Source: a virus. Taken from it: 46,845 nt of DNA. The first letter of the stretch is position 1. Every line of letters begins with the position of its first letter. Both the position numbers and the translations under genes were made by a program. Shown piece by piece: positions 2,468 to 43,250 of this stretch. The notes under the pieces were generated by a model. It ran no database searches and was not told the DNA's origin. It saw only the letters and a program-made list of their open reading frames with translations. The stretch is taken from positions 1-46,845 of IMG/VR virus record IMGVR_UViG_3300017989_000029, one strand, 5' to 3'.

Positions 2468-4498
2468 ATGAGAACGGACAGCAATTTGCTTCGGGCCATG
2501 GCGCCCGGAGCGCAGTTCGAAACCGGCGTATCAGGGCAGGATGAAGCCTTGATGCGCGAGCGTGTCAGAGAAGGCGACCCGACGAACCAAAACGATCGGG
2601 CGGCGATTGCCTGGTGGAAAGAGGAGCGGATACGGCAGGCGAAAAACGCCACAGCCGAAATTCGCGGCAAAGCCGACGAAGCCGTTGCTTTCTACGAAGA
2701 CGATACGCACGTAGCCGTCAGCCCTGACGGACAATTGATTCACCCCGAGCAACTGAAAACCACAGCGATTCCTGTATCGTATCGAAACTGCAACTTCTAC
2801 GCCGTGATGGTTGATGCAATTTGCGCCCGCATCCTCTCGGAAAAAGCGGTCGCCAAAGCCATTGCCGGCGGGATGGGAATGGATGCGCAGAGAAACAAAC
2901 AGGCGGCAAAAGGCGCTGAACTGACGATCCAACATATCGAGCGCGTAAATAACGACGAGGACGAGAACCAGGCGTTGGTGCAAATGCAGGTCCTCGGGGG
3001 CGTCGGTTATCAGAAGGTTTGGTATGACGATGCAGCCTGGGGCAAGGTGTTGATGCAGGACAACAACGTGCATGAGGCGCAGACCGGGGAAATAACGTGG
3101 TCGGCTGTTCCCATGCAGGAAATATTACACGAACCGCAAACAAAATGGCGGCATATCGGTTGGGCAACGCATGGGTATCGGCGTAGCATTGGTTGGGTTC
3201 GCCAAGCGTTTCCGGACCGTGGCCAATATGTATGGGTAGGGCGCGAGGACCGGGCGAACGAGTTCTCGCTAGATACGATGATGCGCGGGGTTCCGGTTGA
3301 ACGTGCGAAGGATCGCGATCCGGACAGCACCCAGGTGGATGTGTTCGAGTGTTTTGCCAGGGCGCTTAACCCTGCAACCGGGCGTCCGGGGTGGCTGAGT
3401 TGGACCTTCTGTGAAGATACCGTTCTCTCCCCCCCTCATTTCCTCCGAGATATTCCACTGATTCCAGTCTATTTCAACCAGTCACTCCGGACAAAGGGGC
3501 CGCTGACACTGGCTTGGGATTTGATCCCCATGCAACGGGAAGTGCGCCAGACGCTTGAGGGCTGGTGTTTTCGCCGGCGCATCCACCAATACCCGAAGCC
3601 GATCCTCCCTCAGAGCATGAAGATGTCGGATTGGGACAACAGCCCGCGGCCAATGCGGGCGCCGGTTGATCCACGGACAGGCAAAATGATCCCGCCAGTT
3701 TGGATGGAGCCGCCCAAACTGGACAGCCAAGGGGTCAATGAGTTTCTCGACAAACAATTGTATTTGATGTCCGAGAGGGCCGGTATTCACGAGACGAGCC
3801 GCGGTATGGTCGGATCAGGGATCACGTCCGGTAAACAAGCGCAGATTGCTGCCGCGCAGGACAACACGAACCTTCAGCGGCCAGTGCAGAACTATCGAAC
3901 AGGCAAAAGCCGCTTGTGGACTGTTGTTCTGCGGCTGGCTGACGAGAAATACCCAAGGGGCAAGTTGATTGAGGTGATCGGTCGCGACAACCGGTATATG
4001 GCCGAGGCGTTTCAAAAGGGCGTGGGTGAGAAGATTGTTGGTATTCGAATCGGCACGATCAGCCGGATTCCTTTGGAGCCGCAGCAGCGCCAAGACTTTG
4101 TGAAGATGATGGCGGAGTTGGGGCTGTTTGCCGAAGGCGCCGAGCGACAGCGCCGCGAGTTCCTGCGTTTCATGGAATTCGAGAGCAACATTGAGGACGA
4201 CGTGGACGAGATTCTTGTGGCTCATGCGATGGCGCTGGAAGAAGAGGAATTGCTGTCACAGGGGAATTGGGCACCGGTCGGCGAGTTGGATTTGCACGAG
4301 TTTCATTTGGAGATTCACTACCAAGCCGCAAACGCGCCAGACGCAAGGGCGGACAAGGAATCTTACGATCTGCGAAAACAACACATCGATATGCACATAA
4401 ACGCGCAACACACGCTTTCAATGGAGGAGGCGCAACGGCAAGCGGAGTTGCAACAGGTGGTTCAACCGCAATTAGGGGGGCAAATGGCAGGGCAGTGA
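2468..4498 (+). CDS. Portal protein
   Basis: A 676-residue protein between terminase and scaffold/capsid genes, the standard place and size of a podovirus-type portal, the dodecameric ring through which DNA is packaged and to which the tail joins. The start at 2468 has AAGGAA nine bases upstream. It is rich in long helices. The segment TSGKQAQIAAAQDNTNLQRP (about residues 450-475) followed by a helix and KYPRGKLIEVIGRD resembles the wing/stem boundary of P22-like portals. No enzymatic motifs are present. The last 60 residues are Gln-rich. The role is assigned mainly from position, length and this segment; no better candidate exists in the window. Confidence 0.85.
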   Translation: MRTDSNLLRAMAPGAQFETGVSGQDEALMRERVREGDPTNQNDRAAIAWWKEERIRQAKNATAEIRGKADEAVAFYEDDTHVAVSPDGQLIHPEQLKTTAIPVSYRNCNFYAVMVDAICARILSEKAVAKAIAGGMGMDAQRNKQAAKGAELTIQHIERVNNDEDENQALVQMQVLGGVGYQKVWYDDAAWGKVLMQDNNVHEAQTGEITWSAVPMQEILHEPQTKWRHIGWATHGYRRSIGWVRQAFPDRGQYVWVGREDRANEFSLDTMMRGVPVERAKDRDPDSTQVDVFECFARALNPATGRPGWLSWTFCEDTVLSPPHFLRDIPLIPVYFNQSLRTKGPLTLAWDLIPMQREVRQTLEGWCFRRRIHQYPKPILPQSMKMSDWDNSPRPMRAPVDPRTGKMIPPVWMEPPKLDSQGVNEFLDKQLYLMSERAGIHETSRGMVGSGITSGKQAQIAAAQDNTNLQRPVQNYRTGKSRLWTVVLRLADEKYPRGKLIEVIGRDNRYMAEAFQKGVGEKIVGIRIGTISRIPLEPQQRQDFVKMMAELGLFAEGAERQRREFLRFMEFESNIEDDVDEILVAHAMALEEEELLSQGNWAPVGELDLHEFHLEIHYQAANAPDARADKESYDLRKQHIDMHINAQHTLSMEEAQRQAELQQVVQPQLGGQMAGQ

Positions 4499-4552
4499 CT
4501 GGGCAACGCTCGCGCTACATAGCGCAAATTCAAGCGTCCCGGTGGAGGAATA

Positions 4553-5365
4553 ATGAGTGCCATGGAAGGCATGGAAAGCGCCATGGACGGCGCGACGGAC
4601 CTGTCAGACGGCGGGCAACCGGAAGATTTCGACGGAGATGCGACCCACGATACGAGCGGGGCTACCGGTGCGCCGGCACAGCCTGAAACGTTCGAAATCG
4701 GCGGGCAACGCTACACGTCGGAGCAACTGCAACAGGCTCTTGATTATCGGGCGAACATGGACCGGTGGAACAAGAGCAACACCGAGCGTTCGGAGCAATT
4801 GGCGGCTGAGCGGCGGGAGTTGGAGGCCCTTCGGGCCGAAGTGAGTGCGGGCAAGGGCAAACGCGGACCGGATGAGGAAACCGAGGAGTTGCCGGATTAC
4901 GGCGACGATGATCTGGCGGAGTTCGGCAGCGCGGTTGAAACCCGCATTACCAAGCAGGTCGAACGGATGCTAAAACCGGTCCTCGACCATCTTGGCGAGG
5001 TGAACAAGACCGCAGAGGCGGAACGTGAAGCGGAAATGCTGAAGGGATTCAACAAGAACCTGGAATCAACGGCGAAGAAATGGGGGGTCAACGAAGATTC
5101 TCTGTATCGCATCGCGGTTGATGACGGCCTGAAGCACCCGCTGGATTACTACGCCAACAAGGTCTTTCAGAAGGCAAACCGGGCGGATGAGGTGCCAAAC
5201 GGCAACCGCCGGCCGGGTCAGGGTCAACCTTTGGTTGGTCCGGGCGGAACGCCAGCCTCGATCGGGGACCAGGACGGCTTGCAGTATGCGCCGGATGACC
5301 CGAGGGCGGAGGAATCGGACCGCAAATGGTTCCAAAAATTCCTCAAGAGCCAAGGGGCAGGTTAG
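4553..5365 (+). CDS. Scaffold-like protein
   Basis: A 270-residue, very acidic protein directly between portal and capsid genes, starting at 4553 with GGAGGAATA upstream. The N-terminus is low-complexity (Met/Gly/Asp rich, about 1-45). A QRYTSEQLQQAL segment comes next, then a long coiled coil (about 70-100 and 125-165: RSEQLAAERRELEALRAEV, EVNKTAEAEREAEMLKGF). The C-terminus is short, basic and helical (RKWFQKFLKSQGAG), typical of the capsid-binding end of scaffolding proteins. Together these features fit an internal scaffold lost during head maturation. Confidence 0.78.
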   Translation: MSAMEGMESAMDGATDLSDGGQPEDFDGDATHDTSGATGAPAQPETFEIGGQRYTSEQLQQALDYRANMDRWNKSNTERSEQLAAERRELEALRAEVSAGKGKRGPDEETEELPDYGDDDLAEFGSAVETRITKQVERMLKPVLDHLGEVNKTAEAEREAEMLKGFNKNLESTAKKWGVNEDSLYRIAVDDGLKHPLDYYANKVFQKANRADEVPNGNRRPGQGQPLVGPGGTPASIGDQDGLQYAPDDPRAEESDRKWFQKFLKSQGAG

Positions 5366-17419: not shown

Positions 17420-18907
17420 ATGCCTTTTCCAACACTTACAATCCGGCGAGGTTCGCCGGGGCTGGAATTTGAGCGCAACCGGAGGGATTTGACGCGGGTT
17501 CCGGGGGTTCAAGAGTTGCTGCGGCGCAAGGATATTCCGGTGGGTTTGACGGATTACGTTCATGGGTTGCGCGAGGACACGCCGGATGGACGATTCGAGA
17601 AATATCTAAATCAGCAGTTGACCGGGACAGCGCCACGGCCGGCGGTGCAGACAATTGATCCGGACCCGGAACAGAACATCGAGATTTCTCTAACGGATGA
17701 AGATTTCGAGGGGATGCGCGAGCCGGAGGGCTATCCGCAAAGCGTGGCGGATCATGTGGCGCAGCGGCGCTCACAGATTTTGAATGCGGTCCAGAGGGAT
17801 ATGACAAAGCCGAAGTATGAGCGTTTGGGCGGCGTGTTGGTCGAAAACCGGAAGGGGCTGTATTATCCGGTCGAGGCGCCTGAAGAGGCTGAGGACGAGG
17901 GGCCGGCGGCGCAGTATATTGCGGACATCCGGGAGGCGAATGCTTCGGGAGGTATGGCGCCGTCAACGGTGCAGCCGTCAAACCCGATGGAAGAGAAGTT
18001 GCATGAGTTTGTCGAATCTTACGGCGGAGGATTCATCACGTCAGAAGATGGGAGCGTTCTTCTACAGAATGCCAATGGGCGAATGAAGGATTTGGATGAG
18101 TTCGAGGGAGAGTCGGACGTGGCGGCGTTCATGGCTGAAGGTGAGCAGGTGTTTGGCCTTCGGCAGCGCTTGACCCAAGATGGGGCAGCCAAAGCGCTGT
18201 TCACATGGGGGCCGGAAGATTTGGAGGCAGGGTTGGGGGAGATCGTAAACGTGAGGCGTGGACAATTGCTACGGCAAGGAGTTCCTCCAGAAGCGATTGA
18301 TGAGGCGATGTTGCAAGACCCGGTGGTAGTGACGTGGATGCAGCGGGTAGAGCAGGGACGCCAGGAGCGGCGGGAAGCGCAACAGCATTATTATGAGCAG
18401 ATGCAGGATGAGCAGGCGCAGCAGGAGAAAGCCGAGAAGGAGTTTTACAGCCAACAGCAAAAGGCCATGGGGTATTTGAAGGACCAGGTTGCCGCGGGGC
18501 AAGAGGCGTATATGGGCTTAAAGGAGGCGTTGGGGCCAAAGGCGGCGCAGATTCTTCAAAATTACCTAGAAACGGGCGAGATCAAAAAGCGGGGGTCTTT
18601 TGGGTTCGACGTTGGGGAATTGGAGAAGGCATTGGCGGTTCAAGGATGGACTCTTGAGGACGTGGAAGAAGCCTACAATGAGTTACGGGAACAGGAAATG
18701 GCGTTGGAGGGGGCCACGCAAGACATGTATCAGCGCTCGGGGCTGATGGGACAGCAGACAAGCCAAGGGCCGCAAAGTGCGATGCAGATGGATGATGCAG
18801 CGCTACAAGCAAGTTTGGCGCGGGATGATGCGGAGATCGCGGAATTAGCGCGTGAAATCGAAGAACTGAAGAAACTAGCGGAAAAGCAGAGCAAAAATGC
18901 CAAATGA
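17420..18907 (+). CDS. Internal virion-like protein, 495 aa
   Basis: Mostly helical and acidic, Gln/Glu/Ala rich. Residues about 310-370 form a long coiled coil (GRQERREAQQHYYEQMQDEQ, QQEKAEKEFYSQQQKAMGYL) and the last 40 residues form another (LARDDAEIAELAREIEELKK). The N-terminal 100 residues are less regular. It overlaps the start of the giant protein by 11 bases. Composition and place suit an ejected internal core protein of a podovirus. No enzyme motif seen. Confidence 0.6.
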   Translation: MPFPTLTIRRGSPGLEFERNRRDLTRVPGVQELLRRKDIPVGLTDYVHGLREDTPDGRFEKYLNQQLTGTAPRPAVQTIDPDPEQNIEISLTDEDFEGMREPEGYPQSVADHVAQRRSQILNAVQRDMTKPKYERLGGVLVENRKGLYYPVEAPEEAEDEGPAAQYIADIREANASGGMAPSTVQPSNPMEEKLHEFVESYGGGFITSEDGSVLLQNANGRMKDLDEFEGESDVAAFMAEGEQVFGLRQRLTQDGAAKALFTWGPEDLEAGLGEIVNVRRGQLLRQGVPPEAIDEAMLQDPVVVTWMQRVEQGRQERREAQQHYYEQMQDEQAQQEKAEKEFYSQQQKAMGYLKDQVAAGQEAYMGLKEALGPKAAQILQNYLETGEIKKRGSFGFDVGELEKALAVQGWTLEDVEEAYNELREQEMALEGATQDMYQRSGLMGQQTSQGPQSAMQMDDAALQASLARDDAEIAELAREIEELKKLAEKQSKNAK

Positions 18908-21900
18908 ATTGATGAGCCGAATCGCAGAACTGGAAAACCGGTTGAACGGTTTGATCAATCGGCGGAACGCAAAGGCGCGACTCTTGAAGTTGCGTCAGGA
19001 GCCGGAGCCGGAGCGGACAAGCGTTTGGAGTGAATTGCCGGGGGTGATGGATGAGAATTTCGGCAAGACACCGATTGCGCGAGCTTCTCATGCGTTCGAG
19101 GCGGGGATGGCGCAACCGCTTATTCAGGCGCCAAGTTTCATGCGGATGGGCGCCCAATTTATCCCGGACGTGCAGAGGCCGGATTATGAACTGTTTGACG
19201 AACCAGAATCGACAGGGGCCAAGCGTTTAGTCGAAGGCGCGGCGAATGTCGCCGAGAAGTATATCTCGAAGCCGTTGCAGGAGAGATATTCGCAACCGCA
19301 ATATCAGCCGCAAGGGCGGGCAAAAGAGAAATTTGCACCAACAAGCTTGGAATGGCTTTCATACCATGTCCCACAAACAGCCGGGCAATTTGCAGGACAG
19401 TTGGCAGCGGGGTCGGTTGCTGGACCGGGGGGCTTTTTGGGTCCCATTGCGGTGCAGATCGGCGGTCAAACGTTTGAAGAAGCCAAGGAAAAACACATAG
19501 CCGATGGGATGTCGCCGGATAGGGCCAAATGGGAAGCGGCGCGAGAAGCGACGTTGAACGCCGGGCTTCAAAGCCTAGGGGAACTGGCGGCAAACAAGAT
19601 TGGAAAATACGTAGACCGAAAAACGCTGACCGGCATGTTCACGCCATTTCAGCAACGCGTGAGAGCGGCATACGCCGAGGGGGCCACGGAAGCCGTTCAG
19701 GGCGAGGTAGAGGCGTTGCTGAAGTGGATATACCGGAACGATCCGGAAGGGCTGGCCGATGCACAGACGCGGTTTGCCGAGTTTTTCCTAGGTGGACTGA
19801 TAGGCTTTGGGGCAGCCGGCGGAGTAAGCGGACGTCCTGGGGGGGACGCTGGCGACGTAGAGCCGGGGTTTGATCCAGGTCAACAACCACCAGGACCGCC
19901 GCGACTTGTCACAAATATGCCAATAGCGCTTTTGCCTGAAACGGCGGAAGGCGCGGTAATCAATCCAGAACTGAGCAGCCTGCTTGAGAATGTTCCGTTG
20001 CAATCGGAGCCTCTCAGGGGTGTCGTGCGCGGAGAAACGCGGTTGCCTGGGGGAGAACCGGTTGGTGCAGCGAACAGGGAGGCACGGCGGGAAGAGTTGC
20101 AGAGAGGCATGGAGGGGCCGCCGCCCGAGCCATACGAAGTGGCGCCAAGACAGCCAACGCAGCCGCAGCAGTTGGGGCCGGAGCAACTTGCGGAATACAT
20201 TCAGGGCGAAGTCGAGGCGATTCCGACGCAGGATGACTTGGTGAGAAGCGCCGGCGCCAAGACCGTCAATGCGATCAGGGAAGTTTTGGGGTTGAGGAGC
20301 CGGGAAGAAGCGAGAGAAATTCGGGATCGAGTTTGGGGGAAGCCGGGGGACATCGGGGATCAAATTGCCGCCCGGGAGCGCCGGATTGCCGAGTTGGAGG
20401 CGCGGAAAGCCGCGGTCAGAGAGCAGTCGGGGCAGCGCCTTGGCGATGTAGGAATGGAGCAGATCAACGATCAGATCGCTGAGATGGGGATAGGCGCACA
20501 GCCCGTAACAGACTATTTCCAGGGGAACCGCATTCGCTATACAGGGAAAGGGGAACAAGAGCCTTCGGGTAGGCGCGTACAGCAACAGCCGGTGGAGGAG
20601 GAGCGCAGGAGCGGCGAAGAGCGGCGTAAAGAGGAGGAGTTGAGGGCGGAGTTTGACGAGCAGGTAAAGCGGGTCAAAAATCCCAAGGACATGACCCGAG
20701 AGGAACTTGAGGACGCGGTTTTGAGGGATGAAACGACGGGCGCGAAAACCAAGTTTGCCTATCTTCTCGAAATGGCTTCCGAAGAAACGCGCAAGCCTGT
20801 CCAAGTGAGTTCCGACCTGGAAGGCTTGAAATTTCTCAATGACGAGTATTCAAACGCAGCCGGCAATGAACTTTTGCAGGAGATAGTTGGAGCCTTTCAG
20901 GATGAAGGGGTGGAGGTTTATCGATACGGCGGGGACGAGTTCGCTTCGCAATTCGATACGGAAGAGCAGGCTGTTGAAGCCTTGGAGCGAATCAAAGCGA
21001 ATTTTGCGAAAAGGCCCATTCGGGGACACAGGCCCAATGGGGAGACCGTTGTTTTCAAAGGAGCGAGTTTCGATTATGCCACAGGAAAAGATTGGGCGGA
21101 AGCCGATGCGAGGCGGAATGAACTTAAAAAGCAGGCTACAGATGAAGGGCAAAGGGCAGAGCGAGGGACAAAGCCTTTTGGATTGGTTGAAGTCGCAGCC
21201 AAAGGGGACAAGGCTGGAGATCGAGAGGCCGGACAAGAAGGGGTGGAAGTATCTCGGGACGCGGAAGTGACCCGCGAGCAAGTTGAAGATAAGAGGTTTC
21301 CTGCGGCCAAGGATGTTGTGGGTAGCCTGAAAGTTCGGGATGACATACCGAACCAAGATTCAATCGGCGCGAGTTTCAACAATTATCGGATTCTCCGGGG
21401 GGTGCGCGAGGTTTCGATGTCTGAGTTTCCGGGCGAGCCGGATGTCAACAGCCGGACGCGGGCTCTGGCGGAAGAGATACGGCAGTCGGGGGAGATTAAC
21501 CCGCTGATCGTGGCGGTTGACAAAGACGGGGCTTATATTCTTGAGGGCGGGCACCGTTGGGACGCCTTGAACATTCTCGGGGTCAAGTCGTTTCCGGCGC
21601 TGGTGGTCTATGACAACGATGGGGAAGGCGGAGAGCCGATTTCGGTTCGGCAATACGGAACGCCCGGAGCGCCGGACCGGGTTGCGCTCGGGAATTTTTT
21701 CGGTAATGAGTTTGATTCCCTGGTGTCCTATTCGACGATCATTGAGGCAAGGAAGGCGGCTGAACGGCTTCTTGGCGGGCCGGTGAAGGCGGGGACCAAA
21801 GCGGCCAAGGAGGTTGACGAGGCGGTTGAAGTCGGGGTGATTATCGCGGCGCGGCGAATTGGCGAAGCGTTCCGCGAAGGAACACTAAATTACTCGCAAG

Positions 21901-24900
21901 CGTTCGACCAGATGGTTGATCTGTATCGCCGTCAGCCGAACCTCGGGGTGCGGACTTCGGAAAGCATTGAGTTGCAGGCGTATTCGACGCCGGCTCCGTT
22001 GTCGTTCGCAGCGCAGGTTATACTCGGACTTCCCAACGACAACCCGAATCTCACGCTCTATGAGCCTTCGGGGGGGCAGGGCGCCTTGGTAACGCTGGCG
22101 GACCCGGAATTTGTTCACATCAATGAGTTGGACACGGAGCGGGCTAAAACGCTGGAGTTGACGGTTGGGCCAGGGGCGCAAATCACATCAGAGGACGCGA
22201 CCAAGACAAAAGGTGGCGGAACGCGCTACGGCCTGGAGATAATCTATCCGCCTTTCGGTAAACTTCGACGGCGGAACGAACAGGGGGAATTGAAGGCTGA
22301 TCAATGGACGATTTTTGATGGAAAGGTCAGAACGAAGGAATTAGACCATGCCATTGTAGGCCGGGCATTAAGCCAGTTGAGCGACAACGGGCGAGCCGTG
22401 GTGATCATTGGCGGTCCAAGCGAGCAGATTTTGAAGAAAGGCGAGGCGAAGCATAAAAACTTTTACCGCGGGCGGACGCGGCTAGATTTCTATTATAATT
22501 TATATTCCAAATTCAACGTTGTCGAACACTTGACGGTGGACGGGAAGTTGTATTCGCGCCAAGGGGCGAAGTTCCCTGTTGACGTGATTGTTATTGATGG
22601 CCGGGGAAAATCTGTGCGAGAATTACCGCAACTGAAAGCCCCGAAGCGAATCCGATCATGGGAGGATTTGAAAAGTGCCACCCAAGAAATATCAACGCAA
22701 TTGGCCGTATCCGGGGATAAAGCGGGCGTGGGCGCCGGGAGTCTTGGAGTTGGCGGCGGTCCCCGTCCCCTGGGGCCAAGAGGGTCTTCAGAGGCGGGAG
22801 GTCTGGACGTTGTTGGCGGTGGACAGGCTGACGTGGGCGGCGAAAAAGGCGGGCTTGGGGTTGCCGGAAGTAAAAGCGATGCTGGCTCAGAATCTTCTGG
22901 AGCCGATGGGGGTTCTGACCGACCTGGACAACGCGGAGACGGTGGAAGAGGCAATCTCAATCGCCCTGGAGCAAGACCTGGTGCAAGAGGCGATCAGCCT
23001 GCGGGCAGAGTTGAATCTTCGGGAACCATTCAAATCGACGCAGGAAGCGGTGTTGGCGGTGCAGGAGACATCTCTGGAGGGTTGGCTGGCAGCGATCAGG
23101 CCATAGAGGACATTTCGACCGAGGACCTGGAGAACCTGATTTTCGACGGGTTGACAGGCTCTTTCGGTGTAGAAGACACGCAAGTATCCGATCAACCGGC
23201 AAAGAGTTCAGAGCCAAAGTATGAGCCGCCGCCTTCGCTTCTCACTTCACAGCGACCGGGCGGGATTGCCATTCCGCCGAAACGCGAGAAGGCTGGAGCG
23301 GGGCTTTCCCGATTGTCTCGCGGCGAGGCGAAAAGCGGCAGAAGTCCGCTGAAGTCCCGCGGGGCATTGGCGGCGGGCGGCGCTCGCCGGGTTGGCGTGT
23401 CGGCGCGTGGTCGGCTTTTGGAGAGAGGGGCGGTGGAGACTTCTCTGGATTCTACCCGCAAAAGTCCCCCGAAAAGTCCCCCGAAAAGTCCCCCAGCGAG
23501 CGATTTGGAAGCGGAATTGGAGGCGTATTTTCGCGATCAAGCGTCGGCCAATCCGTTCGTTGATCCAAAGTTGTTGCGGATCGTGGCGAAGTATTTGGCC
23601 GAGGCGGTGAAGTCAGGAGTGCGGAAGTTCGCGGACGGGGTTCGATATATCGCACAGAGGACGCCAAAGTTTATTGACCGGATTCACGATGCGATTGAAC
23701 AGGGGTGGGAGGTTCTTCGCAAGAAGTTTCCGGTTCTTGATCGAGCGGGGAAGGTTCGCGACGTCTTGAACGCGGATCGAGAGGGGAATGAGTTTCAAGT
23801 TCCCTACACGCCGCAAAGCAAGAATTACACGGTCGAAACGCTGATTCCGAAGAATCAAGCGCAGTCGGTTCACCGAGCGCTGAGAGAGTTGGAAGAGAAA
23901 TACGGGGAGATTGATCAATTTGTAGCCGATGAGTTGGGATTTTCCAAAGATGAGGCCATGGAAGCGTTTTCGGCTGAACAGATCGACGCCATTGGGATCG
24001 GGATCGGAAATATCAAAGGGGGTTCCGGTTTCATTATCGGAGATCAAACGGGAGTTGGGAAAGGCCGGTTTGTCGCGGCGATGATCCGTTATGCGCAACG
24101 CAACGACCTTCTCCCGGTGTTCATTACTGAAAAGCCAACCTTGTATGCCGATATGGTTCGCGACCTGGGTGACATCGGCATGAACAGCGCGGATCGACCT
24201 TTCAGCATTCTCGCGACCAACAACAATTTACGGGTTCCTTTGCCGGACGGGCGAATGTTGCGGACCAAGATGAGCCATGCGAGGCTTTTTTCTGAGGCAA
24301 TCAGCAATTACCGCCAGGATGGCCGCTTGTATGTGGAAGTCGGGATTGGCCGCAAGAAGGAAGTTGTTGATTTCGATGCGGTATTTACGACCTACGATCA
24401 AATGAACACCGTCAATCGGGTTTTGCCGGCCAGAGCGCAAGCGCTTCTGGATGTAGCGCCGCAAGCGATGTTTATCCTGGATGAAAGTCACAATGCCGGT
24501 GGGCAGGGAGCGCCGGCGCCACCGAAGCCAGGGGAGCCGTCGTCAATCCCCCGCAGCCAGACGATTCGGGATATGGTTTCGCGTGGATTGGGGACGGTTT
24601 ATTCGTCGGCGACGTTTGCGAAGCGCCCCGAAGTCATGGACTTGTATTTGACTACGGACCTGAGACATGCGTTTAACGATCGTATTTCGATGGAGGCGGC
24701 CATAAATCGTGGGGGGGTGCCTTTGCAACAGGTAGTTTCAACTATGCTGGCCGAGGCGGGGCAGTATTTGAGGCGGGAGAAGAGCTTTGGCGGGATCGAT
24801 TTCAAGAACGAAGTGGTTGAAGGAGACCGTGCTGCTGTTGACCGCTTCGGGGACCGCCTTCGGGACATTCTCGAATTTGATCTTTATACGGCGGGATTGA

Positions 24901-27900
24901 TCGAAGATGGAGGCATACTTTCCGCGATAGGAACGGTCCATATCAACGCGCAGGGGAAGCATGGAGCGACGAGTTCTAGTTTTGCTTCGGTCCTTCATAA
25001 CGTCATCGATCAGGCTCTTTTGTGCTTGAAGGCGGATCAGGCGGCGAATCAAGCCATTAATGTGTGGAGGAACAAAGAAAAGCCGGTTGTCGCGGTGGCG
25101 AACACGCTGGAAGCGGTAATTGAAAATGCGGTCGAGCGGTATGGGGCCAATGTGAATGAGCCTTTGGACATTACTTTGGAGGACCTTCTGCTGCGGTATT
25201 TAGACCGGACTCTTCAGTTTACCGAAAAGCGCCCTGGGAACGTGAAGGTAGTTCATCACCTAGACCCGTCTGACCTGGGACCGTTCGGAGAGGCACAATA
25301 CAATCAGATTCGAGATGCAATTCAGAATTCCGATTTGAAACACATTCCGGTTTCTCCGATCGACTACATGGCGTTCAAAATGAGGCAAGCGGGGATGAAG
25401 GTCGGTGAGATTACCGGGCGAGGATATGCGCTAGATTATCGCGAGGATGGTCCGCCGCTTTTGGTGACGCGCCCGGCGAAAGCGAGGAATGCGGAGGGAC
25501 GAATTAAGGTTGTAAGTGATTTCAACAACGGGGAGATAGACGCGCTGATCGTGAATCAATCCGGGGCAACGGGCATTAGCGCCCATGCCTCTCAGAAGGT
25601 CGGCAAAGACTTGCGTCCGCGACACATGATTATCGCCCAACCCGAGCGCAATATTGATGTGTTCATGCAGATGTTGGGGCGGATTAATCGAACGGGCCAG
25701 GTCAAGTTGCCAAAATATTCCTTGTTCATGACGGACTTGCCCATTGAAAAAAGACCTGCGGCTGTTTTGAACCGAAAATTGAAATCCTTGAACGCCAACA
25801 CGACAGCCGCCGCCGACTCCCATGTTGATTTCAAAGCGCCAGACTTTATGAACCAAGTCGGGGATCGGGTCGTTGCAAACGTGATGTTGGAAATGTTGGA
25901 CCTGCACGAGCGGATGGGACAGCCCTTGTCTGAAGGAACAGAGGGGCTTGAGCATGAGAACGCGGCGGCAAAGGTTACGGGGCGTCTGGCGTTGCTTAGG
26001 GTGACGGACCAGGAAGCCATTTTGGACGAGATCGAGGGTCAGTATAATGCGGAGATCGCACACCTGGACGCCATTGGGGCGAATCCGCTAAGCGCCAGGA
26101 CGTTGGACTTGGACGCGGAGACGTTGGATTACGATGTCCTTTTCGAGGGTGACAACAGTATTAAAAGCCCGTTTTCCGCGGCGGCCTTGTTGGAAATGGT
26201 GGATGTAAAGCGCATTGGGAAGCCTTATTTGCCTGAGAAGGTTCGGGAGTTGGTGGAGAAAGCGCTGGCAGGCGAGGATGCGGAGGCTCAGGCGAATCGT
26301 GTGGTGGCGGAGGTTAGCCAGCAGACTGAGGATTTCGCGCAAGCGGCTTATGACAAGGTGATTCGGGAGAAAATGCGGGCGGCGAGAATGACCAATCCGG
26401 ATGCCGAAATCACTCAGGACATGCGGGATCAAGCGGAGCGGCGTCGGCAGTTGCATTTGGAGGCGTTGCGGCAGTTGCGCCCGTTTTTAACGCGGTTTCC
26501 CATAGGATTGGCGGTAAGGTTGAAGTTTCGGGAAAATGGGGAAGTCATGTTTGGTGTTGTGACGAACATCGAGCGGAAGGGCAAGGCGCAGAATCCAGCG
26601 GCGCCAGGCAGTTGGATCGCGACCGTTGCGGTTGCGGACGCGGCGCAGGAGATCAAGTTTCCGATCAGCAAGACAGTTATGCCATCTAATGTGAGTGGGG
26701 GTTCGCCGACAATTGAGGTAGAGGAAGCAGACCCGAACGAGTTGATTGCGTCGTTTCAGACAGACGACATTGAGAAGGTGTTTCTGGTTAGCCAGCAGGC
26801 GACACGTGAGCGTCGCTACATGATAACGGGAAATTTGCCTGCGGCCTACGGGCAGGCTATTCCGAACGGTCAAATTGTAACCTATACAATCAAAGGCGGG
26901 GAATTGCGCCAAGGCGTGTTGTTGCCGCGAAACTTTGATCCAGACCGTTACCTGGAGGGCGTTCCGAATCATTTGCAGGGCGTTGACGCGGTTGTGCAGA
27001 CTTTGGATCACGATTTTGCGATGCGAAGAGTTGGCGGAGGGCGCTCGCGCGGCGCGGCTCCAGTTCAGTCTCGAAATCAGGATTTGACGATTATTCGGAT
27101 TGGCGGCGCGGGTTCAGGCCAATATCGAATCGAGGCTCCGGCCAGTCGATCAAAAGGAGCGAAGTATTATTTGGACGAGGGCATTCGGGACGCGATTTCG
27201 CCCGAGACATTTGTAAAAAGCGGTTCGAAGATGCGCGTGGAAGTATCCGATAAAACGATAATCCGCCGAGTGATAGAGCGGCTTATAGGCATTTTGGATA
27301 CGCCTTTATTTGTCCACAATTCGATGATGATGACGGACGCACGAGGTGAGGTCAGGGCGATCAACGAAGAGTATGGCGTTGGCGAAGGGATTAGGCTGAA
27401 CGCGGGCATTCCTATTGACATTTTCGCGAGAGAGTTGTGGCGGGGAGCAAAAGGCGTGTCTCGCGTGATGCGCAAGGTTGGCGATTGGGCAAATAACGAA
27501 GGGAAAAAGGCGCTGCAAGAGATTCCCGTTCTTGGCCGGATGCGGTTGAAGAAAATCAAGGAGTCCTTGCCCGAGTGGGTGCGGCAGGGGATTTCGGGGG
27601 AATTTGACCAGGACCCGCACGTGAAGGCGCTGTCCGAAGAAATGCGGATCAATTTGCAGCGGTTCAAGAGCGAGTTCGATGCGGTTGTGCGGACATTGTT
27701 GGGCGGGGATTTCACAGAAGAACAGTTGATCGCGTTTCATCACTATCTCGACGGGCATCCGGAAGACTTCTTGAATTTACCCACGGAAGTAATGGAGCGG
27801 TTTGCGAAGCCTGCGGAGGAATGGATGCGCGTGGCTCATGCGATGAGCGCCCGGTTTTCGTCGTTGGGGCTACCATTCCGCGAGGAATGGATAAGGCCGG

Positions 27901-29873
27901 GGAAATGGTGGTATCCGCGCTTTTTCGCGAAGCATGAGGGCCGGATGCTGATGGGCCGCTTCTTCGCAAAACCGAAGGAAAGAGGGGCAAAAATTCGAGA
28001 AGGGGCGTTGGGGCGGGCGAAAAGTCGTTATACGGATCGGTATTCGGTGTGGACGAAACAGGGGCAGATTGCGGCGAAGGGTAAGGCGATATTCGAGACG
28101 CTGGATGAAGCCGAGCGGTTCATCGAAAAGCAACGGGGGTTTTGGCTGAAATACCGGGACCTGGACTTGAAAAAGACGATTACAGAGCGGTTCGATACCC
28201 GCGAGGAACGGGCGAAGTTTACGCGGGACAAGGGCATTGAGAAGGTGGGACCGTATGACCTGATCCCTTCGCGGCTGAAGTTCCTGAAGATGTGGCAGGA
28301 CGGCGAGGGGCTGAGGATCATGGAGCCTTGGAGCCAAGAGCAACTGATTGCCCATGGAATGCTGGAGGACCCAATTTTCACGATGCGCCGGGGCGGGCAG
28401 ACAGCGAGCGAGCTAGTGGCGAAGGTTCAGTTTTTTGACCGATTGGGCGAATATGCGCAACAAACATGGGAAATGGAAACTCAAGAAAAGCCGCTGTGGG
28501 TTCCAGCCGGCGCAAGCGTTCCTGCCGGATATGTGAAACTGGAAACGCTCGGGATCAAAGTCCCGCAATCGGCGCTGCAAAACAACGAGAACGTCAAGGC
28601 ATTGTTTGAGGGTTATCTGAGGCCGGATTTAGCGGCCGACATTGCCGGGCTGTTTGGAAAGGGGGGGCTGCTGGAGGCACTGCGATTGCAAGGGCCGGAA
28701 AGGCAGTTGCGCAAGTGGCTCACGAGCAGGAACTTAACGAGACATCCCAAGCAGTTGATGGAAAATTCGCTAACGATGTGGTGGCATGACTCGGAACTTT
28801 GGCTGAACTTCGATCATCGTTTTGAGTCAACCAAGAGGCTCTATAAGCATTTGTATAAAGGGGAGTATGATCCGCTGGTTCAGGAGTTCGTGGATTTCGG
28901 TTTTCCGGAGCATGACTTTTTGAGCGGTGAGGTTGGGTATGGGCTTGGGGAATCGATAACGTCATTAGCGGATGCGGATACGGGCGACACGTCGGTGAAA
29001 AAGCCGTTGCGAGCAGTGGAGATGTTCAGAAAGGCCGACAAGAAACTGGCGAACGCCTATCATTTTGAGGACCTGATGTATAAATTCCAGGCGTATCGAT
29101 GGGCGCGAGAAAAAAGAGGGATGAGTCCGGAACAAGCAAAGGCAGAGGTGGATAAGAACTATTTCGATTGGTTGAATGCTCCTCGGTGGGTAAACAAGTT
29201 GCGCTTCATCCCGTTCAAGCCGGCGGTTTACTGGCAGTTTGGGCGGATCATTGCGAATTCATTCATTGATCGACCTGTTACGTCGGCGATGAAGGCCGGT
29301 TTGCTGGCGGGCTTGTTTTGGCTATTGCGGGAATGGGGAGACGAGGCAAGCGGAGTTAATCGAGAGGAAAGAGACGACCTTAGAGCAACGGACATTGTGT
29401 TGCCGATGACGGACGCGTATGGCAGGAATCTCAAACTGAGCCTTGGCTGGATTCTGCCGTATGGGGATTTGACGAGTATTTTGCCGAGGGAGGGCGCCAA
29501 GTCGCTACCGGCAATTGGTAGAGGGCTTACGCCGTTGATTTTGCAACCAGGTTGGACGGCGGCTAATGTCGGACCGTTCGGGAGGCCGCTTTGGAATCAA
29601 TGGACGGATTCACAAAAGGCCACGTTGCGCGTTTTGATGCAGATGGCTCGGGATGTGGCACCGCAATTTGCAGGGGATATTTACGTTCGGCTTTATCGCA
29701 ACGCCATGAAAGCGCCGGCGGATCGTCAACCGTGGTGGATGCAGGTGGGGACGGGGCCGACCCTGGGGCTGCGGCGAGACATTGATTACAGCGAGGCGGC
29801 ATATAAGAAACGGAAAAGTAAAAAGAAGGGGCAAGGCCAATATAAAAGCTTTTCGGGGCGCGTGACCCGTTGA
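18897..29873 (+). CDS. Giant polyvalent protein: GGDEF, ParB-like, methylase-like and strawberry-notch helicase domains
   Basis: 3658 residues, a DarB-like polyvalent protein probably packaged and ejected with the DNA to protect it. Domains in order: N-terminal helical region with hydrophobic stretches (1-330); GGDEF domain (about 630-705; metal Asp640 in SDLEGLKFLND, intact GGDEF at 678-682); ParB-like domain (about 830-910; LEGGHRWDAL at 882-891); Rossmann methylase-like domain (about 1029-1240; EPSGGQGA at 1056-1063, YPPF at 1117-1120 instead of NPPF/Y); Gly-rich linker (1265-1400); KSPP repeats (1522-1533); strawberry-notch type helicase (about 1690-2420; Walker A GDQTGVGKGR 1715-1724, DESH 1862-1865, motif VI GRINRTGQ 2261-2268). 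The long C-terminal region (2820-3640) is helical and rich in Trp/Arg, like the large polyvalent-associated domains. No phage lysozyme or ADP-ribosyltransferase motif was found. Confidence 0.88.
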   Translation: MPNELMSRIAELENRLNGLINRRNAKARLLKLRQEPEPERTSVWSELPGVMDENFGKTPIARASHAFEAGMAQPLIQAPSFMRMGAQFIPDVQRPDYELFDEPESTGAKRLVEGAANVAEKYISKPLQERYSQPQYQPQGRAKEKFAPTSLEWLSYHVPQTAGQFAGQLAAGSVAGPGGFLGPIAVQIGGQTFEEAKEKHIADGMSPDRAKWEAAREATLNAGLQSLGELAANKIGKYVDRKTLTGMFTPFQQRVRAAYAEGATEAVQGEVEALLKWIYRNDPEGLADAQTRFAEFFLGGLIGFGAAGGVSGRPGGDAGDVEPGFDPGQQPPGPPRLVTNMPIALLPETAEGAVINPELSSLLENVPLQSEPLRGVVRGETRLPGGEPVGAANREARREELQRGMEGPPPEPYEVAPRQPTQPQQLGPEQLAEYIQGEVEAIPTQDDLVRSAGAKTVNAIREVLGLRSREEAREIRDRVWGKPGDIGDQIAARERRIAELEARKAAVREQSGQRLGDVGMEQINDQIAEMGIGAQPVTDYFQGNRIRYTGKGEQEPSGRRVQQQPVEEERRSGEERRKEEELRAEFDEQVKRVKNPKDMTREELEDAVLRDETTGAKTKFAYLLEMASEETRKPVQVSSDLEGLKFLNDEYSNAAGNELLQEIVGAFQDEGVEVYRYGGDEFASQFDTEEQAVEALERIKANFAKRPIRGHRPNGETVVFKGASFDYATGKDWAEADARRNELKKQATDEGQRAERGTKPFGLVEVAAKGDKAGDREAGQEGVEVSRDAEVTREQVEDKRFPAAKDVVGSLKVRDDIPNQDSIGASFNNYRILRGVREVSMSEFPGEPDVNSRTRALAEEIRQSGEINPLIVAVDKDGAYILEGGHRWDALNILGVKSFPALVVYDNDGEGGEPISVRQYGTPGAPDRVALGNFFGNEFDSLVSYSTIIEARKAAERLLGGPVKAGTKAAKEVDEAVEVGVIIAARRIGEAFREGTLNYSQAFDQMVDLYRRQPNLGVRTSESIELQAYSTPAPLSFAAQVILGLPNDNPNLTLYEPSGGQGALVTLADPEFVHINELDTERAKTLELTVGPGAQITSEDATKTKGGGTRYGLEIIYPPFGKLRRRNEQGELKADQWTIFDGKVRTKELDHAIVGRALSQLSDNGRAVVIIGGPSEQILKKGEAKHKNFYRGRTRLDFYYNLYSKFNVVEHLTVDGKLYSRQGAKFPVDVIVIDGRGKSVRELPQLKAPKRIRSWEDLKSATQEISTQLAVSGDKAGVGAGSLGVGGGPRPLGPRGSSEAGGLDVVGGGQADVGGEKGGLGVAGSKSDAGSESSGADGGSDRPGQRGDGGRGNLNRPGARPGARGDQPAGRVESSGTIQIDAGSGVGGAGDISGGLAGSDQAIEDISTEDLENLIFDGLTGSFGVEDTQVSDQPAKSSEPKYEPPPSLLTSQRPGGIAIPPKREKAGAGLSRLSRGEAKSGRSPLKSRGALAAGGARRVGVSARGRLLERGAVETSLDSTRKSPPKSPPKSPPASDLEAELEAYFRDQASANPFVDPKLLRIVAKYLAEAVKSGVRKFADGVRYIAQRTPKFIDRIHDAIEQGWEVLRKKFPVLDRAGKVRDVLNADREGNEFQVPYTPQSKNYTVETLIPKNQAQSVHRALRELEEKYGEIDQFVADELGFSKDEAMEAFSAEQIDAIGIGIGNIKGGSGFIIGDQTGVGKGRFVAAMIRYAQRNDLLPVFITEKPTLYADMVRDLGDIGMNSADRPFSILATNNNLRVPLPDGRMLRTKMSHARLFSEAISNYRQDGRLYVEVGIGRKKEVVDFDAVFTTYDQMNTVNRVLPARAQALLDVAPQAMFILDESHNAGGQGAPAPPKPGEPSSIPRSQTIRDMVSRGLGTVYSSATFAKRPEVMDLYLTTDLRHAFNDRISMEAAINRGGVPLQQVVSTMLAEAGQYLRREKSFGGIDFKNEVVEGDRAAVDRFGDRLRDILEFDLYTAGLIEDGGILSAIGTVHINAQGKHGATSSSFASVLHNVIDQALLCLKADQAANQAINVWRNKEKPVVAVANTLEAVIENAVERYGANVNEPLDITLEDLLLRYLDRTLQFTEKRPGNVKVVHHLDPSDLGPFGEAQYNQIRDAIQNSDLKHIPVSPIDYMAFKMRQAGMKVGEITGRGYALDYREDGPPLLVTRPAKARNAEGRIKVVSDFNNGEIDALIVNQSGATGISAHASQKVGKDLRPRHMIIAQPERNIDVFMQMLGRINRTGQVKLPKYSLFMTDLPIEKRPAAVLNRKLKSLNANTTAAADSHVDFKAPDFMNQVGDRVVANVMLEMLDLHERMGQPLSEGTEGLEHENAAAKVTGRLALLRVTDQEAILDEIEGQYNAEIAHLDAIGANPLSARTLDLDAETLDYDVLFEGDNSIKSPFSAAALLEMVDVKRIGKPYLPEKVRELVEKALAGEDAEAQANRVVAEVSQQTEDFAQAAYDKVIREKMRAARMTNPDAEITQDMRDQAERRRQLHLEALRQLRPFLTRFPIGLAVRLKFRENGEVMFGVVTNIERKGKAQNPAAPGSWIATVAVADAAQEIKFPISKTVMPSNVSGGSPTIEVEEADPNELIASFQTDDIEKVFLVSQQATRERRYMITGNLPAAYGQAIPNGQIVTYTIKGGELRQGVLLPRNFDPDRYLEGVPNHLQGVDAVVQTLDHDFAMRRVGGGRSRGAAPVQSRNQDLTIIRIGGAGSGQYRIEAPASRSKGAKYYLDEGIRDAISPETFVKSGSKMRVEVSDKTIIRRVIERLIGILDTPLFVHNSMMMTDARGEVRAINEEYGVGEGIRLNAGIPIDIFARELWRGAKGVSRVMRKVGDWANNEGKKALQEIPVLGRMRLKKIKESLPEWVRQGISGEFDQDPHVKALSEEMRINLQRFKSEFDAVVRTLLGGDFTEEQLIAFHHYLDGHPEDFLNLPTEVMERFAKPAEEWMRVAHAMSARFSSLGLPFREEWIRPGKWWYPRFFAKHEGRMLMGRFFAKPKERGAKIREGALGRAKSRYTDRYSVWTKQGQIAAKGKAIFETLDEAERFIEKQRGFWLKYRDLDLKKTITERFDTREERAKFTRDKGIEKVGPYDLIPSRLKFLKMWQDGEGLRIMEPWSQEQLIAHGMLEDPIFTMRRGGQTASELVAKVQFFDRLGEYAQQTWEMETQEKPLWVPAGASVPAGYVKLETLGIKVPQSALQNNENVKALFEGYLRPDLAADIAGLFGKGGLLEALRLQGPERQLRKWLTSRNLTRHPKQLMENSLTMWWHDSELWLNFDHRFESTKRLYKHLYKGEYDPLVQEFVDFGFPEHDFLSGEVGYGLGESITSLADADTGDTSVKKPLRAVEMFRKADKKLANAYHFEDLMYKFQAYRWAREKRGMSPEQAKAEVDKNYFDWLNAPRWVNKLRFIPFKPAVYWQFGRIIANSFIDRPVTSAMKAGLLAGLFWLLREWGDEASGVNREERDDLRATDIVLPMTDAYGRNLKLSLGWILPYGDLTSILPREGAKSLPAIGRGLTPLILQPGWTAANVGPFGRPLWNQWTDSQKATLRVLMQMARDVAPQFAGDIYVRLYRNAMKAPADRQPWWMQVGTGPTLGLRRDIDYSEAAYKKRKSKKKGQGQYKSFSGRVTR
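22675..23106 (+). CDS. Overprinted gene inside the giant gene's Gly-rich linker, 143 aa
   Basis: A frame shifted +1 relative to the giant gene opens with GTG at 22675, exactly nine bases after GGAGG (22661-22665), and runs 143 codons to TAG. The product has normal protein composition and predicted helices (REVWTLLAVDRLTWAAKKAG, TVEEAISIALEQDLVQEAIS), while the giant protein's frame here encodes low-complexity Gly/Ser/Ala/Asp linker with unusual codons (GGT, GGA, TCT, GTT). The alternative frame uses the genome's favoured codons (GAG, GCG, CTG, GTG). I read this as a real second gene constraining the linker. No family recognised. A chance open frame in GC-rich DNA is the alternative. Confidence 0.6.
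   Translation: MPPKKYQRNWPYPGIKRAWAPGVLELAAVPVPWGQEGLQRREVWTLLAVDRLTWAAKKAGLGLPEVKAMLAQNLLEPMGVLTDLDNAETVEEAISIALEQDLVQEAISLRAELNLREPFKSTQEAVLAVQETSLEGWLAAIRP
23460..23495 (+). repeat. Three 12-base tandem repeats (KSPP)
   Basis: Three near-identical copies of AAAAGTCCCCCG encode KSPPKSPPKSPP in the giant protein, just before its helicase region. A flexible, extended proline linker. Confidence 0.85.
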
Positions 29874-42165: not shown

Positions 42166-42376
42166 CGGAAGGCCGGATTGTTATTATTGCGGCGCCAAGG
42201 TGGGTTTGGATGACTGGTCAAGGGTGTGCGGAGGGCTTCGGTATCACTGTTGCCGGCCGGCGTGTCAAGATCAGTTGGACCAGGATCGAGTGGAAGCGAG
42301 CGAGGACACAATTTTCACAAGCCGGGAAACGGCAGAAAGGCAATCAAATGGAGATGGAAACGGTTGTGGATGTTAA
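42140..42376 (+). CDS. Cys-rich, zinc-ribbon-like small protein, 78 aa
   Basis: C-Y-Y-C near residue 14-17 and a second set CGG...HCCRPAC form a probable zinc ribbon; the C-terminal 30 residues overlap the start of the Tas-like gene and are low in structure. GGAGGG lies upstream; ATG 42149 is an alternative start. Overlap with the Tas-like gene suggests coupled expression, so it may be an accessory factor. The His-Asn-His set of an HNH nuclease is not visible. Confidence 0.5.
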   Translation: MCCMRVSYSGRPDCYYCGAKVGLDDWSRVCGGLRYHCCRPACQDQLDQDRVEASEDTIFTSRETAERQSNGDGNGCGC

Positions 42377-43250
42377 TGGCATGGAGACTGTGCAGCGTTT
42401 ATCTAAGGACCTGAGGCGGGCTGCAACAGAGATGTATGACCGTGAGGCGCGGTGTCTCGTCAAGTCGTATTACATCATGCAGGAGCAACGGGTTCGAGTC
42501 GGCAATCAGATTTCGTCCGGAGGGGACACACCGAACGAGGTGTTGAAGTATTTCTTTGAGCAATCCGGAATCCTCGAAAAGCAGATGCACGGAGCATTGA
42601 CCGCCTATGCCAAAAGCCACGATATGGGGGTTTGGGCGATGGGTATTTGCGGGATCGGGCCGATTATCAGCGCCGGCCTGCTTGCCCACATCAACCTTGA
42701 GCCGTGGGTTTGCGCCCCGCATCACGGCACAAAGAAAGTCTGTTGGCCAGGTAAGCCATGCACACCGGAATGCAAATTTCAGCGCCTGACAACGGCGGGC
42801 CATATCTGGTCGTTTGCCGGGCTGGACCCAAGGGCGGAGTGGAAAAAAGGAAAGCGCCGGCCATGGAACGCCGCATTGAAAACGCTGTGCTGGAAGATCG
42901 GGGAGAGTTTCGTCAAGGTCAGCGGACGAGACAATGACATTTACGGCAAATTATATCTACAGCGCAAAGCCGAAGAGATCGAGCGGAATGAGCGCTTGGA
43001 ATTCGCGGACCAGGCCAAAGAGAAGTTGGAAAAGTTCGACATCGGCGAATCGACGGACGCTTATAAGGCGTATTCAATCGGGAAACTGCCACCGGGACAC
43101 ATACACGCCAGGGCGAAACGGTGGGCGGTCAAAATCTTTCTGTCCCATTGGTTCGAACGAGCCTATGAATTAAAGTGGGGAGAAAAGCCGCCGATGCCGT
43201 ATGCGCAAGCGATCCTCGGGCATGCGCACAAGATAGAGCCACCGGAATAA
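42348..43250 (+). CDS. tas: Tas-like protein: Nop/IS110 C-terminal-type domain without nuclease
   Basis: Start at ATG 42348, seven bases after AAAGG; 300 residues. MGICGIGPIISAGLLAHINL (about 98-116) is the helix-hairpin segment of IS110-type Transposase_20 and Nop-like domains, and HIWSFAGLDPRAEW...RRPWNAALKTLCWKIGESF (about 154-190) continues it. A Cys cluster (VCAPHHGTKKVCWPGKPCTP-ECK) is inserted between them. The N-terminus is helical and lacks the DEDD RuvC domain of IS110 transposases, and there are no terminal inverted repeats. The gene ends inside the first repeat of the 43245-44381 array. Nop/IS110-related proteins beside tandem interspaced guide arrays are called Tas; this one looks like the form without a nuclease. 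Confidence 0.72.
   Translation: MEMETVVDVNGMETVQRLSKDLRRAATEMYDREARCLVKSYYIMQEQRVRVGNQISSGGDTPNEVLKYFFEQSGILEKQMHGALTAYAKSHDMGVWAMGICGIGPIISAGLLAHINLEPWVCAPHHGTKKVCWPGKPCTPECKFQRLTTAGHIWSFAGLDPRAEWKKGKRRPWNAALKTLCWKIGESFVKVSGRDNDIYGKLYLQRKAEEIERNERLEFADQAKEKLEKFDIGESTDAYKAYSIGKLPPGHIHARAKRWAVKIFLSHWFERAYELKWGEKPPMPYAQAILGHAHKIEPPE

Follow-up and report, generated by a model that had tools for sequence, protein, structure and literature searches.

A conserved putative gene nested out of frame in the linker of phage and plasmid methyltransferase-helicase genes

We analyzed a viral DNA of 46,845 nucleotides (IMG/VR record IMGVR_UViG_3300017989_000029; hereafter, the window is this whole stretch), a 46.8-kb tailed-phage record with genes for terminase, major head protein and tail fibre. 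Its giant gene encodes a polyvalent protein whose parts include weak GGDEF-like and ParB-like stretches, an adenine-methyltransferase (MTase)-like region and a Strawberry-notch-type helicase, with matches to PF13871 and PF13872 above cut-off (Table 1). A Gly/Ser-rich linker sits between the MTase-like region and the helicase. Judged by its helicase domains and adenine MTase motif, the host gene appears to be of the DarB-like MTase-helicase dyad kind; a PPF-type motif is found in most relatives, and the MTase assignment of the host gene is made at the level of this motif. The DarB-like dyad of polyvalent proteins is treated in passages of Iyer et al. (2017, PMC5512222), which also hold that P1 DarB protects DNA from restriction; like that dyad, the host gene is an adenine MTase joined to a Strawberry-notch-type SWI2/SNF2 helicase and occurs in phages and plasmids. 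The searched passages of that paper on the dyad contained no linker-hidden gene. Elsewhere in the window, a transposase-like gene lies at 42210-43250 (PHROG 4285, E 2.6e-38), and the phage may be a transposing or temperate one.

Table 1. Coordinates of the features discussed, in the window unless a relative is named
Feature	Location	Strand	Remarks
Giant host gene, 3658-aa polyvalent protein	18897..29873	+	Largest gene of the window
YPPF, (N/D/Y)PPF/Y catalytic-type motif of the methyltransferase region	22245..22256	+	Upstream of the linker
Shine-Dalgarno GGGAGG, nine bases before GTG	22660..22665	+	Within giant-frame Trp-Glu-Asp codons
Nested-frame TGA just 5' of GTG	22669..22671	+	Sequence reading
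Giant-frame reading over the nested ORF	22674..23105	+	Gly/Ser/Ala-rich low-complexity linker, atypical synonymous codons
Nested ORF, 143 codons, GTG start, frame +1 of the giant gene	22675..23106	+	Acidic, mostly helical product
Strawberry-notch-type helicase region (AAA_34, Helicase_C_4)	23820..26096	+	Bait for collecting relatives
Nested ORF of Gloeobacter plasmid pGMOR1, 149-aa hypothetical protein WP_230844304.1	L015 2444-2893		Annotated gene
HNH endonuclease, 171 aa, +1 in the giant gene, giant frame open throughout	L029 1209-1724	+	PHROG 3377, E 8e-46
Short +1 ORFs, 66-71 codons, in other linkers	L002 10193-10408; L005 3143-3358; L032 2046-2255; L067 8538-8738		Strong SD, coding-like phase

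Overprinted on the linker is an open reading frame (ORF) that, by sequence reading, begins with the GTG at 22675 and ends with the TAG at 23104-23106. A sequence-only reading of this DNA had described it as a 143-codon +1 gene with GGAGG at nine-base spacing from its GTG, coding for a helical protein with favoured codons and set in a Gly/Ser linker with atypical ones; the sequence coordinates bear out the ORF and its start signals, the translation of the giant protein confirms the linker, and the predicted structure described below is indeed mainly helical. Because the TGA at 22669-22671 is in the same frame, the GTG is the earliest possible start and read-in from upstream is excluded. A programmed frameshift into the ORF was considered and is unlikely, with the TGA standing just before the GTG and no +1 slip site obvious on inspection.

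Over the nested region, G+C at the three codon positions is 0.74/0.66/0.43 in the giant frame and 0.66/0.43/0.75 in the +1 frame, and about 0.6/0.44/0.67 in the genes of this genome. Part of this +1 phase is trivial because GGN-rich linkers yield G-ending +1 codons, and the GGN GGN bias meant that the claim of favoured codons required a control by synonymous resampling. We therefore redrew the synonymous codons of the linker 20,000 times, with weights taken from the phage's own codon usage. In 3.75% of resampled linkers the +1 frame remained open, and none of these reached the observed +1 coding score (31.8 versus 3.2 ± 5.0 in open resampled linkers). Synonymous usage in the linker itself was -0.168 as compared to 0.128 ± 0.040 after resampling, with no sample as low, placing its codon choice 7 standard deviations worse than the linker protein itself would need. 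Such a codon deficit is what a second constraint on the DNA produces, and the codon asymmetry between the two frames persists against all 20,000 resamplings. A sliding frame test along the giant gene gave a strong +1 win at 22647-23096 alone. The same test also marked a weaker stretch at window 20967-21266 in which +1 exceeds the giant frame, and no SD-led ORF of at least 65 codons was found there.

These data bear on the possibility that a Gly-rich linker automatically gives an open, G-ending, helical-looking +1 frame by chance. The fraction of resampled linkers that stay open in +1, together with a weak +1 preference in a few other linkers, agrees with such an origin; the observed coding score, however, lies far beyond the simulations, and as described below the product is conserved across relatives and predicted to fold, the substitution pattern in relatives and the choice of GAG in the SD codon speak against chance, and the nested ORF is also present in an AT-rich genome. 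We consider a chance frame extremely improbable, and for the family it is already refuted.

Used directly as the query, the window ORF yielded no relative by tblastn in phages, an IMG/VR pattern search, Pfam or PHROGs, and relatives were reachable solely by way of the helicase, which is about 41% identical. Helicase-collected loci comprised 13 and then 80 viral loci (IMG/VR), plasmid and phage records, and 67 genome loci, and a wider scan range was needed for nested ORFs where an extra domain precedes the helicase. At the MTase-helicase junction the +1 frame is open for 90-170 codons in nearly all relatives, and the +2 frame is usually much shorter. We then ran a profile of the nested products over every ORF in three frames at 143 distinct loci, with 60 codons as the minimum length, and obtained matches in +1 at 119 loci, in +2 at none and in frame 0 once, where a Leptolyngbya genome has a frameshifted copy; most of the profile-negative loci have a divergent +1 ORF at the junction. 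As a blind test we left the genome loci out when building profiles, which then matched 43 of those loci, all in +1, with +2 and in-frame ORFs also on offer. The giant frame runs uninterrupted across the nested gene in 118 of the 119 loci. A long +1 ORF is found even in a phage relative at 31% G+C, where a composition effect is excluded. Carriers include cyanobacterial plasmids, Desulfovibrio, alphaproteobacteria, a Bacteroides phage and many uncultivated phages.

The start signals are shared as well. Nested starts are ATG in 111 of 119 loci (the window start is GTG), an SD match of at least 5 bases precedes 101 of the 119, and a strong SD at the nested-start position is retained in relatives of the window locus. 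Of 83 giant-frame Glu codons within the SD, 73 are GAG, compared to 44.9 expected from each helicase's own usage, an excess which argues that initiation itself is under selection. These comparisons show a candidate +1 gene of 90-170 codons between the MTase and helicase parts of this class of polyvalent proteins from mobile elements, equipped with its own start codon and SD, and the sequence-only reading's expectation that the +1 frame should stay open in homologues held.

The relatives also decide whether the +1 stretch might truly be part of the giant protein, joined to it by compensated frameshifts or assembly errors. The codon phase switches cleanly at both edges, as two frameshifts would make it do, yet the +1 arrangement with stop, SD and start recurs in more than 100 independent sequences, and one truly frameshifted copy looks quite different. 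The relatives already refute compensated frameshifts, to which we assign next to no probability. The frameshifted copy (L166, about 4300-5000) is one of two in a Leptolyngbya genome: an indel runs the nested frame into the helicase frame, and the MTase frame stops at 4894. It is a natural frameshift, and the copy may be decayed or newly split.

We then compared selection on the two frames. In 456 pairs the nested product was always more similar than the linker, in alignments that were guided by the nested protein. An unbiased substitution test, which counted single-base effects against simple expected counts, was done on cousins of the window phage because the latter has no close relative, and used ten disjoint gapless pairs from one subfamily. 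Changes over the nested region fell at giant codon positions 1/2/3 in numbers of 222/113/108, while in the helicase of the same genomes most lay at position 3 (0.23/0.15/0.56), as is usual for an ordinary gene. Changes silent in the nested frame and nonsilent in the giant frame were in excess (182 observed versus 114.6 expected), and those silent in the giant frame and nonsilent in the nested frame were in deficit (98 versus 124.7). In these pairs the putative nested protein is thus shown to be constrained more strongly than the linker it overlaps, and the predicted shortage of amino acid changes in the +1 frame relative to the linker was found in close pairs of relatives. For the window itself, second-frame selection is read indirectly, through codon phase and profile match. 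Codon phase and relatives together uphold the proposal that the overlapping gene is real and is served by its own ribosome-binding site, and we are highly confident that the nested gene is real, translated and conserved.

The window ORF is a divergent member of this family, with an identity of about 15-36% to the others. Against the family profile (hhalign) it scored 52.6 at a probability of 95.9%, and 150 shuffles scored no more than 28.0. It retains the invariant Trp and Pro (residues 19 and 21) of the N-terminal 'AWxP' motif as well as the C-terminal 'SLxxWL' helix of the family. In a helicase tree the window groups with relatives L026 and L043, both carriers of the nested gene.

AlphaFold predicted a mainly helical fold with a short beta element near the N-terminus, both for the window ORF (pLDDT 79.8, pTM 0.77) and for the relative L049 (pLDDT 93.6, pTM 0.87). 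Foldseek returned no match with E below 1 for either model in the PDB or for the window model in BFVD, and VIA returned a single row (Z 2.3, rmsd 5.0, 83 residues). Among 39 members searched against Pfam, PHROG, NCBIfam and PADLOC, no two supported a common family. We judged the weak matches of single members to unrelated Pfam, NCBIfam and PADLOC models to be chance, and likewise a match between Nup155 chains and the nested profile (E 0.045). The proteins are acidic, with a median pI of 4.46, a net charge of -10 and 95% below pI 5.5 over 120 members; the window copy is mildly so (pI 4.96, net charge -4). The models predict that the nested gene encodes a folded protein family without description in the databases searched, and the family was likewise undescribed in the literature searched, in which coverage of subscription journals is thin.

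The distribution of the nested gene follows the helicase. The deepest branch as drawn in the helicase tree sets off a group of 73 rows, 72 of which carry it; the root was placed merely to draw the tree, and about a dozen carriers were recognized by eye, through a divergent +1 ORF, and not by the profile. The one row inside the carrier clade without it is Persicobacter, whose MTase and helicase genes are split; the non-carrier side holds a Pseudomonas plasmid, Vogesella, an Acinetobacter phage, Burkholderia and Competibacter. Across 292 cyanobacterial genomes every match to the nested profile lies directly upstream of a helicase, and on plasmids profile or protein matches are always at the helicase gene. 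A limited sampling of these genomes and plasmids found no standalone homologue, and as far as sampled the nested gene appears never to be free-standing. Wide sharing within essentially one helicase-tree clade suggests that the nested gene is old, and from its distribution it appears to be obligately nested.

These data do not support the earlier suggestion of a new gene fixed in a tolerant linker, as the gene appears old and codon usage and fold point the other way. Codon usage has been used as a criterion for the ancestral frame of overlapping genes (PMC8227390). At 85 of 119 loci the nested frame fits local codon usage better than the linker does, and in 120 of 120 the nested product exceeds the linker in complexity. 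Reversing the order of the sequence-only reading, we suggest that the linker is more likely the younger reading: in codon usage and in fold the nested frame resembles an ordinary protein, and the linker does not. This polarity is tempered by the fact that old overprinted genes can gain typical codon usage. We regard as evenly balanced the fuller proposal that a widespread, undescribed family occurs only nested in +1 in the MTase-helicase genes of plasmids and phages from several phyla and came between the two enzymes as an independent gene, with the linker as its read-through, and that such linkers may commonly hide genes.

As to how the nested gene might work, ribosomes would initiate inside the giant mRNA at GGGAGG...GTG and thereby make a free acidic helical protein of 143 aa from the giant protein's own transcript; given the start signals, internal initiation yielding a free small protein is very likely. 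The giant-frame reading of the region would serve as a flexible spacer. The small protein might act with the MTase-helicase as an assembly factor, as an inhibitor until delivery, or as a specificity or activity subunit, and the partnership would protect incoming DNA against host restriction. We tentatively favor such a partner role in antirestriction, at somewhat under even confidence and from linkage, because the nested gene is found only with the MTase-helicase, is inherited with it and would be made from its mRNA.

Less probable, and still worth considering, is that the nested protein has no more than its locus in common with the MTase-helicase and acts alone in anti-defence, for example by blocking a host nuclease as an acidic DNA mimic. 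Ocr and ArdA are acidic DNA mimics with anti-restriction activity. The strong acidity of the family fits this idea, as does the membership of the host gene in the DarB-like dyad, which passages of PMC5512222 place in antirestriction. The window copy, however, is only mildly acidic. Neither Foldseek nor VIA linked the family to the fold of a known inhibitor, a negative that is still compatible with a DNA-mimic fold. Genes for anti-defence typically move about and turn up by themselves, whereas the nested gene was never found away from the MTase-helicase.

We also weighed a homing-type insertion like ShiLan, in which an out-of-frame endonuclease would have invaded the gene and been tolerated through read-through of the other frame. 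The ShiLan domain is a hidden HNH endonuclease in phage methylases (Arsenault et al. 2025, PMC11855218), so the same trick is documented; as at our locus, an out-of-frame ORF lies within a phage DNA methylase gene, the in-frame reading stays open as a loop, and the window ORF and ShiLan share a GTG start. In addition, the giant gene of the relative L029 contains, at another place and out of frame, a true HNH endonuclease, which looks like an independent case of a ShiLan-type hidden homing endonuclease. ShiLan, however, is a homing HNH endonuclease of patchy occurrence for which no ribosome-binding site is detectable (PMC11855218), whereas the nested family has no match to HNH or any other recognisable nuclease. 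Its SD sites are strong, and nearly all rows of its clade carry it. A homing origin is therefore very unlikely, and a partner of the MTase-helicase remains our preferred reading.

Complete genes within other genes are familiar from phages, where phiX174 E lies in D and K across A/C, and lambda Rz1 lies in Rz. The nested family resembles these as a complete gene within another, in a different frame and with internal initiation. The phiX174 and lambda nested genes, however, are confined to particular phage groups, whereas the nested family occupies an interdomain linker and extends over several bacterial phyla, in plasmids as well as in phages. E and K of phiX174 are de novo overlaps (PMC8227390).

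The nested gene has mostly been missed in annotation because gene callers drop overlaps. On pGMOR1, where the nested ORF is an annotated gene, the helicase gene is annotated to begin after it, though the fused frame can be read without a stop from 1429 on. In the remaining carrier records that we examined, from plasmids and phages, the giant gene alone is annotated at the junction. Extra SD-led ORFs in giant-gene linkers, among them the short ones of Table 1, are all in +1 and none in +2.

Overlapping genes are usually small, young and limited to a few related viruses. The nested gene described here is predicted to be folded, appears to be old, and is spread across phages and plasmids of several phyla while being confined to its host gene. 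Cultured carriers, namely cyanobacterial plasmids, among them that of Picosynechococcus PCC 7117 and Gloeobacter pGMOR1, and the Bacteroides phage BS-TP4, exist for direct testing. A large class of antirestriction proteins would thereby gain an unstudied component, and its linkers would be worth searching for hidden genes.
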